From: Dermatophagoides farinae
Taxonomy: Eukaryota > Arthropoda > Arachnida > Sarcoptiformes > Pyroglyphidae
DNA length: 64,000 nt
Assembly (NCBI RefSeq): GCF_024713945.1
Contig: NC_134679.1
Coordinates: forward strand, 3,601,001 to 3,665,000
Direction of reading: 5' to 3'
The notes beneath the pieces are model-generated. The model was not told the origin of the DNA, did not search any database, and was given only the letters and a program-made list of their open reading frames with translations. The position numbers were made by a program, and so were the translations under genes. Shown piece by piece: positions 3,238 to 43,290 of this stretch. How positions within the stretch are numbered: position 1 is the first letter of the stretch; each line of letters opens with the position of its first letter.

Positions 3238-6200
3238 TCAATTTAATTCATCGTTAAATCTATATTTAGACAAAGTAAGTGCGACACCGAAATTTGTTTC
3301 CCATGCCGAACAAATTAAACGACAAGTTTGTATAAGACTTTGTTGATTAAGAAATGTCAATTTATATTCATAAATGATAAGTTGATTGTTATTGGTCAAT
3401 GTTGATGATGATAAAGAGGCCGTTTTATTGTTGGCCAAAGATGGCGGTAAGCAGATGGTGGCTGTAGATTCATCGTCTTCACGAAAACGCATCACTAGTA
3501 ATGATTTTGATTTATCAACGTAAATGTTGGGCAACAGGTTATTAATGGATTCTTTAAACAACGTTTTAATTTCGATATGATCATTGAAATCTTTTTTGCA
3601 TTGGTCTTTCAATGTTTTCGAAATTGATTGCTCATTTGAAGATGCTTTTTTGATAGTCGATGCTATTTTGGGCAACGAACAAAACATTTCGAATATGATC
3701 AGATGATCATTTGCTATTATTAGACCAATATTTTCATTGATTGTAAATACATTATTGAATGATGATGGTGAAGATGAAGATGCAGTAATCGTGGATGTCG
3801 AAGCGTTCTGTAGAAATCGAAATGATTGAAGAAAAAACATCCGATAAGATCGATCATTTTTAATGTCATCATTTTGGAATGCTTGAGATGGTTGTGGTTC
3901 GCCATGGTGTAGCAATGATCGACAAGTCTCATCGAAATCCACTTTCAAACAATCGACATTGTCATCTTTATCGTTATTTTCAATTAGTTTATTTTTCACT
4001 TTGATCAATCCATTCATATTGCCGACTAGATCAGATTTGGAATGATTGCGAATGCAAATTTTTTGAAATTCAAATAATAGTTCGAGGAATGCTTTGCCAA
4101 CAGTATCATCGCCGAATATTATAAATTCTAATAGATAATTTGGTTGTTGACGATTGATGCGTTTATTTTTAGCCAATAGTTTCTTCTGCGAATTGCTAAG
4201 TTTATATTCGATCCAATAGCCAAGATTTTTAATTGGCCAAGGTAGATGACAAATATGAAGCGAACTTAATCGTTTCGATCTTGGCGCCAACGGAACGTAG
4301 AAAATCAAACATATTAGATCGTGTTTCTTTTCTTCGGATGTGGATCGGAAACTAGATGATGATAGATTTTTTCTTAGTGATAATGGCTCCTTAAGTGGTA
4401 TTTCCTTGTTCGGAATCGATTGCTGCACAGCTAGATGATCGAACAAGAAAAAAAAGTTTGACGTAAGAACAGCAAGAGCCGGTTTAAATGAATTTTGTTG
4501 AAAATCGAAACAATAACAATAGAATAGGACTTCTACAGATTCCGACTTGAGCGATTCATCGCCAATCTTTTCATACAAATAGATTTCGATATGTAATTTA
4601 AGATAATGATCAATGTTGTAGCGGAAAAAGTTTTCGTCCAACTTAAGAAGGTCATTATTATCGTTCAAATCAGAAGAATCGTTACGAATGGAAGTGTTTT
4701 GTTGTGGATAATCGACTAACAGTGATTGTAATTGAACATCTTTATAAGCTGAACTTTCATCTTTGATGATCAAATCTGAGCCACATTTAGTACAATCAGT
4801 TATGATACGATGCGTTCGATTACCACATCGTAAACACATATAAAACCAAGGTGCATCTGCTGTTTTCTTATTTCCACTTGTTTTAGCTTGATCGATACCA
4901 CCGCCATCCTTATTTCCAAAAGATGATTGATATTGTTTTCGATAATCAATTAATTTGGAAAGAAACATTTCGACAAAATTCTTATAAGATTTTTCATCCA
5001 AAAAACGATATATACGTTCTTTTTTCGATACAACACAAGTGTCAAAATATAATTTGATTGCTGTATTTACATTTAGACATTCATATTTTTCCAATACTTT
5101 TAGATCAAGTGTTTGTAAAACTTTGCCTGATGTACAATCTTTTTCGTAGATTAATCCATCATGTGGTCTGATACGAATAAAATAATAATCAATATCCGGA
5201 TTTGGAGTTTCTAGAATTGATTCGAATTCAGAAAGGCTTTGATAAATTTCGACCAAGAACACTGTGTTCTCTTCCTCTGTATCTTCGCTTGCCCATTCAG
5301 AAGTGCTATTCAAAAACTGATGTGGTTCAGGTGAGATAGATTTTTTTGCCATGTTTTCGATGGTTTCATTTGGTTTGTCAACAATAGTTTTTTCAGAATC
5401 ATCTTCTAATTGTTCCTCCTGTTCTACATAAACTTCAAACAACTTTGAGCTACTTTCGTTTCGATTTGGAATACTGCTATAACTTCCAGTATATCCACCA
5501 AAAAAATAATTCTTTATAGCTGTCTCATTTCGTTTTTCATTTCTAGTAACAGATGTGGATGATAAAATGATGGGTGACACATCAGTTAAACTGTTAAAAG
5601 CTTCAATAGCTTCATCTTCATCATCGTCACTGATTACAATAAACCGTTCTTTGGATGGTTTACTTCTTTTCATTTTTCGAATATTTGCATTTTGATTAGT
5701 TGTATTTGATAACTGATCGGCTGCATAATCGTTGGATAATCGTATTGTTTGATCAACAATGTTTGATATAACTGGTAACGGTTGCAATGTTTCGCTAGTC
5801 TTGTTTCTGCTTACTCGTTTACCATTGAAACGGACCAATCGACAAAGGACACTTTGACATTTCGATTTAATCCAATGATCACAGCAAATGGGATTCTTTT
5901 CAATCCATAGTGTCTTTAATGTTGATGAAAGATAGACCATTTCGGAAAGAAATTTTCTAGTATTGGTAATACTATTCTCAGAAACATCGAGGTAATCTAA
6001 CGAAGTGAAATTTCTGAGACCAAAAATTGAATCAATAAGATTGCCACGAAGGGATAGATATACCAACGATGATAAAGTGTTACTATTTAGTTTCGGCAAT
6101 TCTCTTAAAGAGTTATAGTCTAAACACAATTTAGTGATTGTCCCGGATGATGAATAATTGGCCAAGTTGTTAAAATGGGATATCCTATTACAGCGAAGAT

Positions 6201-6852
6201 CCAACGTTACGATTGAATTGGGTATAGTTGATGCATTCATTACAGTAATGTTGCTACGAGATATACAGAGGTAAGTTAGTGAAGGCCATGAACCGAACTT
6301 GTCCCAAAAAAGTTCGTCAATTCTGAATGGTTTGAAATTATCCCTTTTTGAATCAATACTTTCATGCTGACGATATAATTGCCACAGTGAATATGTTGAT
6401 TCACTGAGCGATTCATAATTTCCACGTATCCATATCAAGGATCGCAGATTTTGTCTCAATTTTTCCGTTCCGACCAATTGATGAAACGGAATCCTAATCA
6501 ATTCGAGTGCTTGACAAGACTCAAACAATGATACATCGATCAATCCTCTAAATGACTTGTTCGACGGATAAACAATTTTGATACAAGGACATTCACGAGC
6601 TAATGAGAGGATAAAATCATCACCACATGAAGCTAATGGACATTTGTTACTGGGCGTTATGATTTCATCATCTTGTTCTTGTTGATGGTTGACAATTTTT
6701 TGTGGTACACGCAACAACAACAATAAACCGTCGATGCAAAGTTGACATTTTCCTTGGCGTAAATTTTTTGCTTGTAATCGACATTCTTGGCTAAAAATGG
6801 CCAATGAATGAGGGAAAAGATACGATGATGATGATGATGATGATGATGACAT
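3238..6852 (-). CDS. STK11IP: Serine/threonine-protein kinase 11-interacting protein (STK11IP / LIP1), intronless
   Basis: The family binds the tumour-suppressor kinase LKB1 (STK11) and has been reported on lysosomes as an mTORC1 substrate that affects autophagy and acidification. This reading frame is 1204 aa with no intron; the human protein is about 1090. Seen: poly-Ser at residues 2-10, then leucine-rich repeats from about 190 to 325 (units such as VTLDLRCNRISHF, LVYLSLRGNLIDSI and LDYLDVSENSI), capped by LWIEKNPICC. An acidic low-complexity linker (ISDDDEDEAIEAF) follows near 409. A four-cysteine zinc ribbon sits at C673-x2-C676-x10-C687-x2-C690, ending CTKCGSD, as in vertebrate STK11IP (CLRCG...CPNCGSD). 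The C-terminal third (about 750-1204) is PH-like beta-rich sequence with a final motif around CSAWETNFGVALT. The LRR plus ribbon plus C-terminal architecture fits STK11IP; nischarin is the nearest alternative, but no PX domain is present. The start lies inside a trinucleotide repeat, so its length may vary. Confidence 0.85.
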   Translation of the reverse strand: MSSSSSSSSSYLFPHSLAIFSQECRLQAKNLRQGKCQLCIDGLLLLLRVPQKIVNHQQEQDDEIITPSNKCPLASCGDDFILSLARECPCIKIVYPSNKSFRGLIDVSLFESCQALELIRIPFHQLVGTEKLRQNLRSLIWIRGNYESLSESTYSLWQLYRQHESIDSKRDNFKPFRIDELFWDKFGSWPSLTYLCISRSNITVMNASTIPNSIVTLDLRCNRISHFNNLANYSSSGTITKLCLDYNSLRELPKLNSNTLSSLVYLSLRGNLIDSIFGLRNFTSLDYLDVSENSITNTRKFLSEMVYLSSTLKTLWIEKNPICCDHWIKSKCQSVLCRLVRFNGKRVSRNKTSETLQPLPVISNIVDQTIRLSNDYAADQLSNTTNQNANIRKMKRSKPSKERFIVISDDDEDEAIEAFNSLTDVSPIILSSTSVTRNEKRNETAIKNYFFGGYTGSYSSIPNRNESSSKLFEVYVEQEEQLEDDSEKTIVDKPNETIENMAKKSISPEPHQFLNSTSEWASEDTEEENTVFLVEIYQSLSEFESILETPNPDIDYYFIRIRPHDGLIYEKDCTSGKVLQTLDLKVLEKYECLNVNTAIKLYFDTCVVSKKERIYRFLDEKSYKNFVEMFLSKLIDYRKQYQSSFGNKDGGGIDQAKTSGNKKTADAPWFYMCLRCGNRTHRIITDCTKCGSDLIIKDESSAYKDVQLQSLLVDYPQQNTSIRNDSSDLNDNNDLLKLDENFFRYNIDHYLKLHIEIYLYEKIGDESLKSESVEVLFYCYCFDFQQNSFKPALAVLTSNFFFLFDHLAVQQSIPNKEIPLKEPLSLRKNLSSSSFRSTSEEKKHDLICLIFYVPLAPRSKRLSSLHICHLPWPIKNLGYWIEYKLSNSQKKLLAKNKRINRQQPNYLLEFIIFGDDTVGKAFLELLFEFQKICIRNHSKSDLVGNMNGLIKVKNKLIENNDKDDNVDCLKVDFDETCRSLLHHGEPQPSQAFQNDDIKNDRSYRMFFLQSFRFLQNASTSTITASSSSPSSFNNVFTINENIGLIIANDHLIIFEMFCSLPKIASTIKKASSNEQSISKTLKDQCKKDFNDHIEIKTLFKESINNLLPNIYVDKSKSLLVMRFREDDESTATICLPPSLANNKTASLSSSTLTNNNQLIIYEYKLTFLNQQSLIQTCRLICSAWETNFGVALTLSKYRFNDELN
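6824..6850 (-). repeat. GAT/ATC trinucleotide repeat coding for N-terminal poly-Ser
   Basis: A run of GAT units on the plus strand reads as TCA serine codons 2-10 of STK11IP on the minus strand. It directly follows the start codon, so repeat slippage would change only the length of the poly-Ser N-terminus. Confidence 0.75.
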
Positions 6853-7416
6853 GGCAATTACATCAAAACAACGATCATGGACGGATAAATGGGGTATGAA
6901 TTTGTTTATTTGAGGCGTAAATAATCATTTCACATTAGATCATATATTTTATTTATTACATTGGTTTGAATCACATGTTTATATTTAGATGTTGTCTTTG
7001 ATCACAGATATAGTACCTATCAATCAATCAATTCATAATTATAATCGATGATGATATGAAACATAAACACATTCCAACATAGTCAAAAACGAATTCAGAT
7101 ACTTTGGATTCTAAACAAGAAATAAACAAACAATTTCTTGCCTTAGTCACAATGTTGAACCTGTGCCTAATCGTGGCAAATGGTGCTAGTAGCATTCATC
7201 ACAATTAACAGAATGGCCAAACCACAGTTTCCATACACATTGATTGTTATGCTGTTGTTATGCTATAGCCAATAGTCAAACGTTTGTCACCAAATTCAAA
7301 TCGAATTTTTTCCATTATTGATCCAACAATATTTCAAATTTCAAACAGTTTTCAATATAAAATAGCCCGATGAATATGGGCATGATAATGTTGTTATTCG
7401 AATACGTCGAACTAAT
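6853..7416. promoter_or_regulatory. Shared divergent promoter region of STK11IP and PRC1
   Basis: The 564 bp between two head-to-head start codons contains no credible gene. It must carry both promoters and 5' UTRs, or be a bidirectional promoter. The sequence is AT-rich and less dominated by simple repeats than the later part of the window. I cannot point to a specific TATA or initiator element. Confidence 0.6.
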
Positions 7417-9144
7417 ATGTCTAGCATCGAATCGATTCAAAGAAGTCTTAGTGCTAGTTTTTCTGAACAATTTTTGGATACGAACGAAAATCAATGTGAT
7501 GATCAAGCATTTGTCCCGGAACCAATGAATACAAATGATGAAACAATCATTACGGATTCAAATATACATTATGACAATGATGAATGTTGGCGAAAAATGT
7601 CCGAAGAGTTCCTTCATCATTTTCGACGTCAAGCAAAACGGTTGTATAAAATTTGTTCCAAAATGACCAGATCAAGCAAATGTCGAGAGGAAACAATGCG
7701 AGAATTTAGCCAAAAATTGTTACATGAAATGGAATCGTTTGTAAAACGTAAGAAATCGATCTATGAATCACGTTTGGAAGAAATCGATTCATTGAAAAGA
7801 GAAATTGAAACCATTTTGAGCCAAGTGATTTTATTTATGCCTGAATCAAGACTGCGAAAATATCTCCGAATATCGATTGGATCGACATTTGATCACGAAG
7901 AAGAATCAAGCATTGAAGATCGGTTGGACGAATTGAAAAGAATGCAACAATCATTAATCGAATGTCGAGATAAACACGTGTCTAAGGTGATTGACTCGCA
8001 GGAAAAGTTACGGCAGTTGATCAAAATATTGGGCATCGATTCCTATGATAGTAATGATTATACTCGTTTTTTGTCAACTCATTTGTTAGATATCGAAGAA
8101 CTAAAATTACTTCGTAATGAATTAGCCAATCTTCATATATTGATGCATCAACGACAACTTCTTTGCAGTCAAATGGCTAAACAGATTTGTTTTATAGTTG
8201 GCCTAGTACCGTTGCCCAGATTTAAAAACGAACCATTTTTGATCGATCATCTTGATTTCAATAAAAATCCAATTGAAGATTATTGTATCGGGCGTCATTT
8301 TATCTATTCCGAGGAAAATATCACAATTTTAAAAGATTATCTGAATCAATGTCAAGTCGAATTTAAAAATAGTTGGCAATCAATTCAATCTAAATTCGAA
8401 CAGCTCGATCAAATGTATTCACTATTTGATTTGGAATGTCCAGATAATGATGCGTTTAATTTGGTTAAAGCTATATTAAACCAATACGATCTTTATCAAA
8501 AAGAGCATCAAGATAAAAAAGATCTTACCGGATTTTTATTTGAAAATTACAGTTCATTCCCATTTTTTGCAGCTATCAATGACTTAGCTTGTATCCAAAA
8601 ACAATTAGATGATGATTATAACCATTATGAACAAATGAAATCATCAAGAATGGAAGAAATAATTGAACTTGTAAGAAAACATTTTGTTACTCTTTCAGCC
8701 AAATGTATGATTGATTTCGAAAGTCTTATCGAATCGGATGACCGATATAGGCAATTGTTCCAGAAATCGGACAACTATAATGCTCAATTGCTTGAAGAAC
8801 ATGAAGCGGAATTGGCTCAATTGAAACGATATTATAATGAATATGAGAAATTTTTCATGCTCATCACACAATATCAAAAATTAAAGGAAGAAATAATCGA
8901 ATGTGAACAAAAATCTCGAGATGTATATAAGACAAAAAATCGTGGCGGAATCATGTTGCAGATATCGAATAAAAAACGAAGCACCCAGAAACGATTGATG
9001 CACCTACAAGAACAAATACGAAAATGGTACATTGAATATTGTAATCAACAACAACAACAACAACAACAGCTAGAGAATAATGACTCAAAAATTCCATTCG
9101 ATTATTATGGTGTTCAAATCGAAGATATCATCAATAAAATATAA
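7417..9144 (+). CDS. PRC1: Protein regulator of cytokinesis 1-like (PRC1/MAP65/Ase1 family), intronless
   Basis: Proteins of this family are homodimers that cross-link antiparallel microtubules in the anaphase spindle midzone and, with kinesin partners, organise the cytokinetic apparatus. This one is 575 aa, near the usual 600-700, in a single uninterrupted exon. Most of it is charged helical/coiled-coil sequence: the N-terminal half (about 50-250) fits the dimerising rod, and the centre carries the segment ILKDYLNQCQVEFKNSWQ. The most conserved family element, NRGG in the spectrin-like microtubule-binding domain, is at about 508-511 (VYKTKNRGGIMLQ) and is followed by the usual basic helix (KKRSTQKRLMHLQ) and an aromatic WY pair. 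A CAA tract makes Gln 544-551 in a short C-terminal tail, so the long basic tail of vertebrate PRC1 seems to be missing. Overall identity to vertebrates looks low; the NRGG block carries the call. Confidence 0.8.
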   Translation: MSSIESIQRSLSASFSEQFLDTNENQCDDQAFVPEPMNTNDETIITDSNIHYDNDECWRKMSEEFLHHFRRQAKRLYKICSKMTRSSKCREETMREFSQKLLHEMESFVKRKKSIYESRLEEIDSLKREIETILSQVILFMPESRLRKYLRISIGSTFDHEEESSIEDRLDELKRMQQSLIECRDKHVSKVIDSQEKLRQLIKILGIDSYDSNDYTRFLSTHLLDIEELKLLRNELANLHILMHQRQLLCSQMAKQICFIVGLVPLPRFKNEPFLIDHLDFNKNPIEDYCIGRHFIYSEENITILKDYLNQCQVEFKNSWQSIQSKFEQLDQMYSLFDLECPDNDAFNLVKAILNQYDLYQKEHQDKKDLTGFLFENYSSFPFFAAINDLACIQKQLDDDYNHYEQMKSSRMEEIIELVRKHFVTLSAKCMIDFESLIESDDRYRQLFQKSDNYNAQLLEEHEAELAQLKRYYNEYEKFFMLITQYQKLKEEIIECEQKSRDVYKTKNRGGIMLQISNKKRSTQKRLMHLQEQIRKWYIEYCNQQQQQQQQLENNDSKIPFDYYGVQIEDIINKI

Positions 9145-37782: not shown

Positions 37783-38641
37783 AATATATGAATTTGAGTT
37801 AATTTATTCAATTCAAATCTTAGTAAGTCGATCGGTCGGTCGGTTTTTTCTTCTTATTCTTCACTTTTCACTATCCACTATCCACCACCACTTGTTTCAT
37901 CGGTCGGTGGTATACAGTAGTTGTTTGGATGCTAACATTGCTTGGCAATAAAGATTGATATTTTCGATATAGACTAGACTATTTGAGATATAATCATTAT
38001 TATCATCATGCTAGTTTGTATGGAAATTTTCGTACATTCACATTGGATTCAGGCTTATAATCCTCTAGAAAAGAAAAAGGATTCAAAGATGTTTTTTTGT
38101 TTGTTGATATGAACTACTGTGATTCATTCCAATAATATGACTTGATTGAATGAGGATGATTATTCATGAGACATTATCATGGATTCTTTTTTGAATACAT
38201 CATGACAATTCTCGAGGAATGTTAAAACAATTACCCGATAAATATAATTTTTTGTTACAGACAATTTGGCGCCCGTATTGCCGTACTTTTGATGATGTGT
38301 GTGTGTGTTTGATTCCAAATCTTGGATCGTAGTCTGTTTGTTTTGGGTGTGTTTGCCTCTTTTTTATCGAGTTTTAGCTGCTTTTCTGTTGTTGTTGCTT
38401 GCCGAATTTTTTTTTTATATCAAGTAGTCAGTACTTTATCGATTGGTTGGTTGATTCTTGCTAAATATTTACCTAATTCGTCAACATCATCATCGGCAAC
38501 AACAACAATAACAATAATATTTGAACCTTTTTCTGTTACCATTGTTGTTTTTTTTATTGATGTCGTCTTTTAAACCCACCCATTTACACTTTCAAATGAA
38601 CATTGTGATTTGAAATTTTTTTTTGTCTTCGTGTTTTGCAG

Positions 38642-39110
38642 GCCAATCTGTTTATGGGACTTGGCGCCGCAGCTACGAATAATAGTACTGGTAGTAGTGG
38701 ATCACCACTTATTTCTGATACGGAATCACGTGGAATCCGTTCAACAACCCTATCAACACCTGCATCATCAGCCAATATTGCTCCACAATCATCATCGGTG
38801 ACGGCTTCATCACCTGTGAATCAATCACCACCAGGGTTAAATCTATCATCACTTCATCATCATCATCATCACCTTCATCAACAACAACAACAACAACATC
38901 ATCATCATCAACATCAACATGGTACATCGCCAACAACCACAGCAACGACAATGACGACCTCGACAACAAATCCAGATACATCGGCCGTAACATGCGATGA
39001 ATCATTAACGGCTGCATTTGGACAGGCTGCTGTTGCTGCAACACATTTACTCGATATCAAGGATGTAATCGGCGCTGCTAATGGGGGTAGTTGTGATCAA
39101 CAACTAAACG
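38642..39110 (+). CDS. Second exon of the unidentified gene: Ser/Thr/His/Gln-rich linker
   Basis: After the acceptor TTTTGCAG the frame opens in phase 0 with ANLFMGLGAAATNNS and continues for about 156 codons. It runs through Ser/Thr/Pro-rich sequence (STPASSANIAPQSSS), SPPGLNLSSL, a mixed His/Gln tract (CAT/CAA codons, about 38856-38922) and a Thr-rich tract. It ends in a more ordered segment, ESLTAAFGQAAVAATHLLDI. The exon probably ends at AACG|GTGGGT (39110, phase 1); otherwise it stops at TAG 39119-39121, giving a 196-aa protein with AATAAA at 39188-39193. The first reading is preferred because 196 aa of mostly disordered sequence would be an odd complete product. No recognised domain is visible; it looks like the activation or linker region of a nuclear regulator. 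Confidence 0.65.
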
Positions 39111-39121
39111 GTGGGTGCTAG

Positions 39122-42308: not shown

Positions 42309-42317
42309 TCATTCATG
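42309..42317. repeat. Left 9-bp target-site duplication TCATTCATG
   Basis: This nonamer abuts the left end of the foldback element and is repeated exactly at 43282-43290. Confidence 0.9.
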
Positions 42318-42544
42318 GGTTGTGTCACAAATTGTCGAAAATAAAAATGTCGAATACAAAATGGTCGAAAATATTTGATCGAAAATAATAAAGTCGAAAC
42401 GACAAAAACGTCGAATAGACAAAAATGTCGAAAATAAAAAAGTCGAAGATTGAAATGTCGAAAATGGCTTGAGCCCTTATCCCTTAAAATTATCACTAAC
42501 GAAAAAAGACTCAAATATTATTTTTTTCATTTCAATTCTGGATA
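42318..42544 (+). repeat. Left terminal inverted repeat
   Basis: The outer two thirds are built from TCGAA-centred units separated by AT-rich spacers. The inner third (about 42465-42544) is unique sequence including GGCTTGAGCCC, and it matches the right arm in reverse complement. Confidence 0.88.
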
Positions 42545-42780
42545 ATCACACATTAAGATGATAAAATTTTATTTTTATTCGAACTATTTGGATTCATATT
42601 ATTATCAATTCACTTTATATTTTCATTCAAATTTGTTTGTGATTATTATTTGATTGTTTATCGAGTTACTACAGCATCAAAATTATCTTTAAGTAATTAT
42701 TGAAGAGTGGGTGATAAAAGGAGCATTCAATGTTATGAACGGTCTTCACAGGGCCAAAAATGTTTATTTTTTTTTCTAGT

Positions 42781-42800
42781 TTAGGTTAGGTTAGGTTAGG
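42781..42800 (+). repeat. (TTAGG)4, arthropod telomere-type repeat inside the transposon
   Basis: Four perfect copies of TTAGG, the common arthropod telomere motif, lie in the loop region of the foldback element. The run is too short and too internal to be a chromosome end. Confidence 0.85.
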
Positions 42801-42824
42801 TGGTCTCGGTTCATTAGATTAATA

Positions 42825-42849
42825 CAAACCTCACCGAAGGTGAGGTTTG
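42825..42849. other. Perfect 11-bp hairpin in the transposon loop
   Basis: CAAACCTCACC and its exact complement GGTGAGGTTTG flank a 3-nt GAA loop. The hairpin follows the TTAGG run closely and is the strongest short stem-loop seen in the element. Confidence 0.8.
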
Positions 42850-42968
42850 GATAAAACTATTGTATTGACAAACAATCTAGAATAGAGATCAAAGTCTAAA
42901 ATACTATAAATCGGTTCATCGATGTTTTACACTTTTGTCTCAGAAAATTTCCTTGTCTTTGACAATAA

Positions 42969-43056
42969 GTAAAGTCAACACTGACGTTATCTGCATTGAA
43001 TAAAGTAAAGTTAACACTGACGTTCTCTGCATTAAATAAGGAAAAGTCGCCACTGT
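42969..43056 (+). repeat. 36-bp tandem repeat, about 2.3 copies
   Basis: Units starting GTAAAGTCAACACTGACG (42969) and GTAAAGTTAACACTGACG (43005) are 36 bp apart. A third, decayed and partial copy starts near 43040 and runs into the right inverted repeat. Confidence 0.75.
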
Positions 43057-43057
43057 G

Positions 43058-43281
43058 TATCCAGAATTAAAATGAAAAAATAATATTTGAGTCTTTTTCG
43101 TTAGTGATAATTTTAAGGGATAAGGGCTCAAGCCATTTCGACATTTCAATTTTCGACATTTTTATTTTCGACATTTTTGTCTGTTCGACATTTTTGTCAT
43201 TTCGACTTTATTGTTTTCGATCAAATATTTTCGACCATTTTGTATTCGACATTTTTATTTTCGACAATTTGTGACAGAACC
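43058..43281 (-). repeat. Right terminal inverted repeat
   Basis: This is the reverse complement of the left arm with a handful of mismatches and short indels. The good match suggests that the insertion is fairly young or that the arms have been homogenised. Confidence 0.88.
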
Positions 43282-43290
43282 TCATTCATG
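43282..43290. repeat. Right 9-bp target-site duplication TCATTCATG
   Basis: This is an exact copy of 42309-42317, directly after the right end of the element. Confidence 0.9.

Follow-up and report, generated by a model that had tools for sequence, protein, structure and literature searches.

A probable non-autonomous foldback transposon from a small, recently active family in the house dust mite Dermatophagoides farinae

The window analysed here, a stretch of 64,000 nucleotides from the genome of Dermatophagoides farinae (assembly GCF_024713945.1, contig NC_134679.1, positions 3,601,001 to 3,665,000), contains a 964-bp element that is probably a non-autonomous foldback transposon of a small, recently active mite family, for which a MULE-type enzyme would be supplied in trans. 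A foldback-type transposon had been proposed in a sequence-only reading of the window, and this is borne out by the multiple copies with their own 8–9 bp duplications, the composite long inverted repeats, and the variable number of repeat units.

The limits of the element are exact to the base, as had been claimed, with the same 9-bp duplication (TCATTCATG) on both sides (Table 1). Its two arms of about 225 bp were rightly described as near reverse complements, as they share 94.4% identity over an alignment of 233 columns (42318–42550 against 43054–43281) with 8 mismatches and 5 gap positions. The same holds for the terminal motif (GGTTGTGTCACA at the left end and GGTTCTGTCACA at the right end) and for the short internal units of the inverted repeats, which are ~15 bp long, have a TCGA core, and recur with a period of 15 in both arms (nine TCGA each within the outermost 230 bp on the left and on the right). 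These arm units are candidate binding sites for a transposase. When the element is folded as single-stranded DNA, it reaches −273.5 kcal/mol, compared with a mean of −91.7 kcal/mol (sd 5.8) for shuffled sequences, and none of 20 shuffles folded as well.

Table 1. Features of the foldback element (positions are those of the window)
Feature	Position	Strand	Remark
Whole foldback element, type A, 964 bp	42318..43281	+	nine aligned copies, 886–974 bp, same ends
Left target-site duplication TCATTCATG	42309..42317	.	identical to 43282–43290
Right target-site duplication TCATTCATG	43282..43290	.	identical to the left one
Left inverted arm	42318..42544	+	94.4% identity to right arm
Right inverted arm	43058..43281	-	inverted match to left arm
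Left terminus GGTTGTGTCACA, G at position 5	42318..42329	+	
Right terminus GGTTCTGTCACA, C at position 5	43270..43281	-	
Left-arm array of ~15-bp TCGA-core units	42329..42465	+	Tandem Repeats Finder, period 15
Right-arm array of ~15-bp TCGA-core units	43136..43270	-	Tandem Repeats Finder, period 15
(TTAGG)4 run in element interior	42781..42800	+	
Perfect 11-bp hairpin with 3-base loop	42825..42849	.	loop GAA in window, TTC in other copies
36-bp minisatellite, 2.5 copies	42967..43055	.	adjoining right arm

The further copies that the sequence-only reading proposed to look for do exist. The assembly (62,435,336 bases in 22 contigs) was searched with the whole element, its terminal 83 bp, and a terminal pattern, the resulting repeat counts being lower bounds, and 15 two-ended elements with a summed length of about 19.9 kb were found; partial copies (L018, L020, L021, L022, and L027) and smaller fragments, in which at least one end is missing, stand outside this count. 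Nine elements of 886–974 bp (the window copy and L009–L016) form type A, L017 and L019 measure 1,269 and 1,671 bp, type C is represented by L023 (1,454 bp), and type B by L024–L026 (2,266–2,481 bp). Types A, B, and C have in common a related terminal motif, TCGA-core units, and a 36/38-bp minisatellite. The ends of types B and C read GGTKCTATAACAATTGGTCGAACA, which is related to the type-A ends, and the minisatellite unit of 36 bp in type A has a related 38-bp counterpart in L023 and L024. In the accessible part of the D. farinae genome paper, 736 DNA-transposon pieces (55,004 bp) are given, with no foldback class (PMC11074847).

Flanking duplications were likewise confirmed for the copies: 14 of the 15 two-ended elements carry exact duplications of 8–9 bp that differ in sequence from one another, L019 being the sole case without one. 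The duplication is 9 bp long in 11 of the 14 elements and 8 bp long in three (L012, L014, and L016), which agrees with the length typical of MULEs (8–11 bp, usually 9). When left and right flanks were taken from different copies as a control, 0 of 210 combinations matched over 8 or 9 bp and 1 of 210 matched over 7 bp. Chance is excluded mainly because the other copies have their own duplications. Furthermore, the 1,480-bp flanks of eight of the nine type-A loci (all but L016) gave no mutual match at E ≤ 1e-10, so the type-A copies are not segmental duplications. The minisatellite units and long palindromes in the sequence might also suggest that the repeats are no transposon but a palindromic satellite or the outcome of segmental duplication; however, the unrelated flanks of these eight loci, the exact ends, and the 14 duplications of differing sequence make such an origin extremely improbable. 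A separate observation was made on C2 to the right of L026 (2951–2969 of that locus), where the flank after the right duplication TTTTTTTGT reads GGTTCTATAA, identical to the first 10 bp of L026's own end; this may be a footprint left by excision or gap repair that stayed incomplete, or by another insertion into the same junction.

Recent movement of the foldback family is indicated by three copies on three contigs (L011, L012, and L013 on contigs 4, 3, and 2) that show 0 differences over 928 bp, each of which has its own duplication of 8 or 9 bp. L010 differs from these three in 1 of 928 compared columns, gaps aside. Among the type-B elements, 7 differences were counted between L024 and L025 in 2,266 columns, and L026 differs from L024 and L025 in 45 of 2,330 and 50 of 2,210 columns, respectively. 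Copies also differ in the length of their repeats: the left arm has lost 17 bp in L009, 54 bp in L015, and 37 bp in L016, and one unit of the 36-bp minisatellite is missing in L011–L014 and L016. These arm deletions and the unit loss would fit slippage in repeated sequence, which foldback arms are expected to undergo. The interior hairpin is present in 12 of the 19 sequences examined, its loop reading GAA in the window copy, L009, L015, and L021 and TTC in L010–L014, L016, L017, and L023. Since GAA and TTC are mutual reverse complements, a single inversion event accounts for the three base changes, and since each loop state is seen both in the A group and in the L017/L021 pair, at least two flips, or a spread by conversion, would have taken place. 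As for the TTAGG run inside the element, four units were observed in the window copy and at the corresponding position of other copies, and five in L010. The run might be taken for a telomeric capture; short TTAGG/CCTAA runs occur in L033 (see below) as well.

The two ends of an element are similar yet not the same. Among the elements with a duplication, the ten whose ends read GGTTSTGTCACA have G at position 5 of one end and C at that position of the other, and in the four type-B and type-C elements G at one end is paired with T at the other at position 4. The ends are thus unlike in all 14 elements with a duplication, and they are alike (C and C) in L019, which has none. Because the copies share ancestry, they do not amount to 14 independent trials; at least the A group and the B/C group are separate. 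In L017, the two end bases are swapped relative to its interior, which is what exchange between the arms would be expected to produce. A comparable pattern has been described for Tm1, a Mutator/Foldback family of root-knot nematodes, in which the motifs of the two ends differ in 24 of 39 and 20 of 22 elements, and one element whose end motifs are identical lacks a duplication and was proposed by the authors of that paper to stem from a crossover (PMC3169594, in the sections available). A crossover accounts for L019 equally well, and the rule of unlike ends is therefore a hypothesis and not a result. Taking both sets of observations together, we tentatively suggest, as a reading that is on the doubtful side, that foldbacks may transpose only with two slightly different ends, a single near-terminal base marking each end so that the transposase would treat the two in a strand- or order-specific way, and that hairpin loops and the interior may be inverted in place repeatedly through the action of the long arms. 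The mite family offers a natural test of whether unlike ends are needed, as the differing base could be swapped once the enzyme is known.

The larger elements hold captured sequence. All three type-B elements (L024–L026) carry a copia fragment: in their core, a stretch of ~463 bp that matches two copia elements having long open frames (88.5–89.6%) is joined to a sequence of ~320 bp, which occurs in at least 39 other places among the matches listed (40 of 190 candidates scored). Part of a 42–51 bp minisatellite is included in the type-B interior as well, and an 81-amino-acid piece of this interior matches RVT_2 (PF07727) with an E value of 1.9e-12. Type B is thus a case of a retroelement fragment captured by a foldback element. 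The dispersed repeat carried by type C (L023) is different from the type-B cargo. Several repeats surrounding this subject were noted on the side. The copia-like L043 and L044 have frames of 1193 and 1288 amino acids that are uninterrupted in the stretch fetched. L040 (1736–6408) and L041 (2999–3523) belong to another repeat family with a 42-bp minisatellite, whose arrays in L040 are inverted over several kb in a foldback-like manner, and a related piece is found in the type-B elements. Moreover, a motif of ~32–49 bp around CGTTCAAAGAGAACGT is present in L023 (element positions 911–958), L033, L038, L039, and L042, loci that are otherwise unrelated.

The check for an autonomous copy, which had been proposed along with the first description, yielded further copies and none with a MULE-type transposase between the ends (34 of 34 terminal sites and 100 listed arrays). 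A 22-base terminal pattern (GGTTSTRTMACAAWTKGTCGAA) matched 58 genome sites with up to 3 mismatches, compared with 17 for a reversed-pattern control. All 34 sites with 0–1 mismatch lie in known copies, corresponding to both ends of the 15 two-ended elements (30 sites) and one end each of L018, L020, L021, and L022, and the other 24 sites have 2–3 mismatches. Triple GTCGAA arrays were confined to known copies in 100 of 100 matches listed (115 in total), with 0 in the control. At the locus of the largest two-ended element (L026, 2,481 bp), the longest listed stop-to-stop frame has 103 amino acids and gave no Pfam match. Together with the PF10551 (MULE) profile, the terminal-pattern sites with 0–1 mismatch and the listed GTCGAA arrays disclosed no transposase between family ends; as the window copy is non-autonomous, its partner may be missing from the assembly or have ends that diverged. 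Other sites were considered and set aside. In L030, the GGTCACAAAATGTCGAA sites are part of long direct repeats belonging to an LTR-like element, and the sequence around them is common to L031 and L032; a lone one-mismatch site at C5:753160 (L034) gave no repeat in self-comparison. The direct repeats of L030 (736–1895 and 7180–8339) are 1,160 bp long, 99.9% identical, and about 5.3 kb apart, and L030 is a young LTR-like element. Three identical relatives of the terminal pattern with 3 mismatches (TGTTTGATCACAATTTGTCGAA) at C6:5218465, C7:3165, and C10:3338089 all lie near contig ends and are perhaps a subtelomeric repeat.

Genome-wide, the PF10551 profile gave one match (C3:1397048) that scored 26.5 bits against a cut-off of 27.6, and 27.7 when the frame was scored alone. 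A FLYWCH match lies just upstream of it, and this relic (L033) is broken by stops and partly duplicated. With regard to the FLYWCH-MULE transposase of Phantom and Tm1, FLYWCH matches occur at four places in the genome, with no terminal site of 0–1 mismatch near any of them; those on C1 and C8 were rejected as partners, their long frames being read as host genes with no PF10551 match there. Within L033 (1–5340, C3:1392500–1397840), two FLYWCH/MULE relic copies flank central frames, and a GIY-YIG frame (PF22945) follows downstream. The frames between the relic copies presumably resemble a BEL/Pao retroelement. As similarity to both FLYWCH and MULE domains, which are paired in Tm1-A, was found at L033 alone, and as a 41-bp stretch upstream of the relic shares 88% identity with part of L023, the relic (C3:1396392–1397227) could be regarded as the remains of the family's own autonomous element. 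The 41-bp stretch, however, is a dispersed repeat whose core of ~32–49 bp is also found in L038, L039, and L042 without other family sequence, and its likeness is therefore no evidence linking L033 to the movement of the family. When L033 was compared with eight elements (the window copy and seven others), the arms gave no match better than E = 0.008 over 28 bp, and the relic seems to have been duplicated together with an apparent part of a zinc-finger gene, which leaves this origin quite improbable.

A further possibility is that the foldback elements are mobilized by a non-MULE transposase, namely of the P superfamily (Galileo-like), Merlin, or hAT. Foldback anatomy has been described in several superfamilies, Galileo having a P-type transposase (PMC3169594 and PMC4079207, as far as their available sections go), three of the 14 duplications are 8 bp long, and no MULE transposase with family ends was found. 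Against this stand the 9-bp length of the other 11 duplications and, for Merlin, the 0 matches of PF12762 in the genome (this domain matched in 1 of 14 control genomes); the P-type domain PF21787 gave 0 genome matches and likewise none in any control genome. We consider a non-MULE enzyme unlikely, though less so than L033 as a remnant of the family's autonomous element. The MULE/Rehavkus assignment made in the sequence-only reading gains from the duplication length and the published anatomy and stays at the level of a probable assignment, as no transposase was found between the ends; it is favored because of the duplication length and the parallels to Tm1, Rehavkus, and Tetris. There is a tension between the recent movement and the lack of a visible enzyme source.

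Under the preferred reading of a non-autonomous foldback family served by a MULE enzyme, a DDE cut-and-paste transposase, most likely of the MULE (Mutator) superfamily, would be supplied in trans. It would bind the repeated arm units, pair one end of each kind, cut at GGTT, and join the ends to staggered cuts in the target. Arm length would be altered by slippage within the units and by exchange between the arms of one element, and parts of the interior would be flipped.

In the surroundings of the element, from 9.2 to 64 kb in the window, only one of the stop-to-stop frames listed reaches at least 135 amino acids (38609–39121, + strand), and it gave no Pfam match above the cut-off. No tRNA gene was found. 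Two longer frames lie at 3238–6924 (− strand, 1228 amino acids) and 7366–9144 (+ strand, 592 amino acids), which may encode a leucine-rich-repeat-like protein and a PRC1/Ase1-type protein, respectively. Among the literature matches listed, no report on foldback or MuDR elements in house dust mites was recognized by title or abstract start, which is consistent with the early suggestion, as far as titles and abstract starts tell, that the family is undescribed in this lineage. In a 2026 survey of arthropod MULEs, complete elements are listed for Ixodida and for some spiders, whereas neither 'mite' nor 'Acari' appears in its main text (PMC13359780). The present analysis shows that a medically relevant mite harbors a foldback family that moved recently, and the unlike ends as well as the absence of a visible enzyme source are details worth following.

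Several known systems resemble the mite elements. Like them, Drosophila Foldback (FB) elements have long repeated terminal inverted repeats (TIRs) and target duplications of 8–10 bp. Tetris, in the sections available, likewise combines long repeated TIRs with 8–10 bp duplications, which were interpreted as Mutator-like, and its search for an autonomous copy was also negative (PMC4079207). With Rehavkus, the mite elements share a 9-bp duplication, a TIR within the range of 26–400 bp, and a minisatellite before one TIR (the 3′ TIR in Rehavkus); the Rehavkus transposase has a PHD finger, and insects and annelids are the hosts given in the part of that paper at hand (PMC6446971). Like Pack-MULEs (PMC8277862), type-B elements hold captured foreign sequence between their ends, but the cargo consists of a retroelement fragment and repeats, with no host gene identified. 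The parallels to Tm1, as presented in the accessible sections of its description (PMC3169594), include composite TIRs with a variable number of short units (~14 bp in Tm1 and ~15 bp in the mite), 9-bp duplications, ends that usually differ, copies of ~0.9 kb without a transposase, and, once in each family, an alike-ended element without a duplication. In contrast to the mite family, Tm1 has an element that encodes a FLYWCH-MULE transposase, and it is described there as not recently mobile, no two elements being identical, whereas the mite family has three identical copies and yielded no coding copy. Finally, the asymmetry of the ends takes a different form in the two families, as it resides in a 7-bp motif outside the inverted repeat in Tm1 (PMC3169594, same sections) and in a single base within the inverted repeat in the mite.
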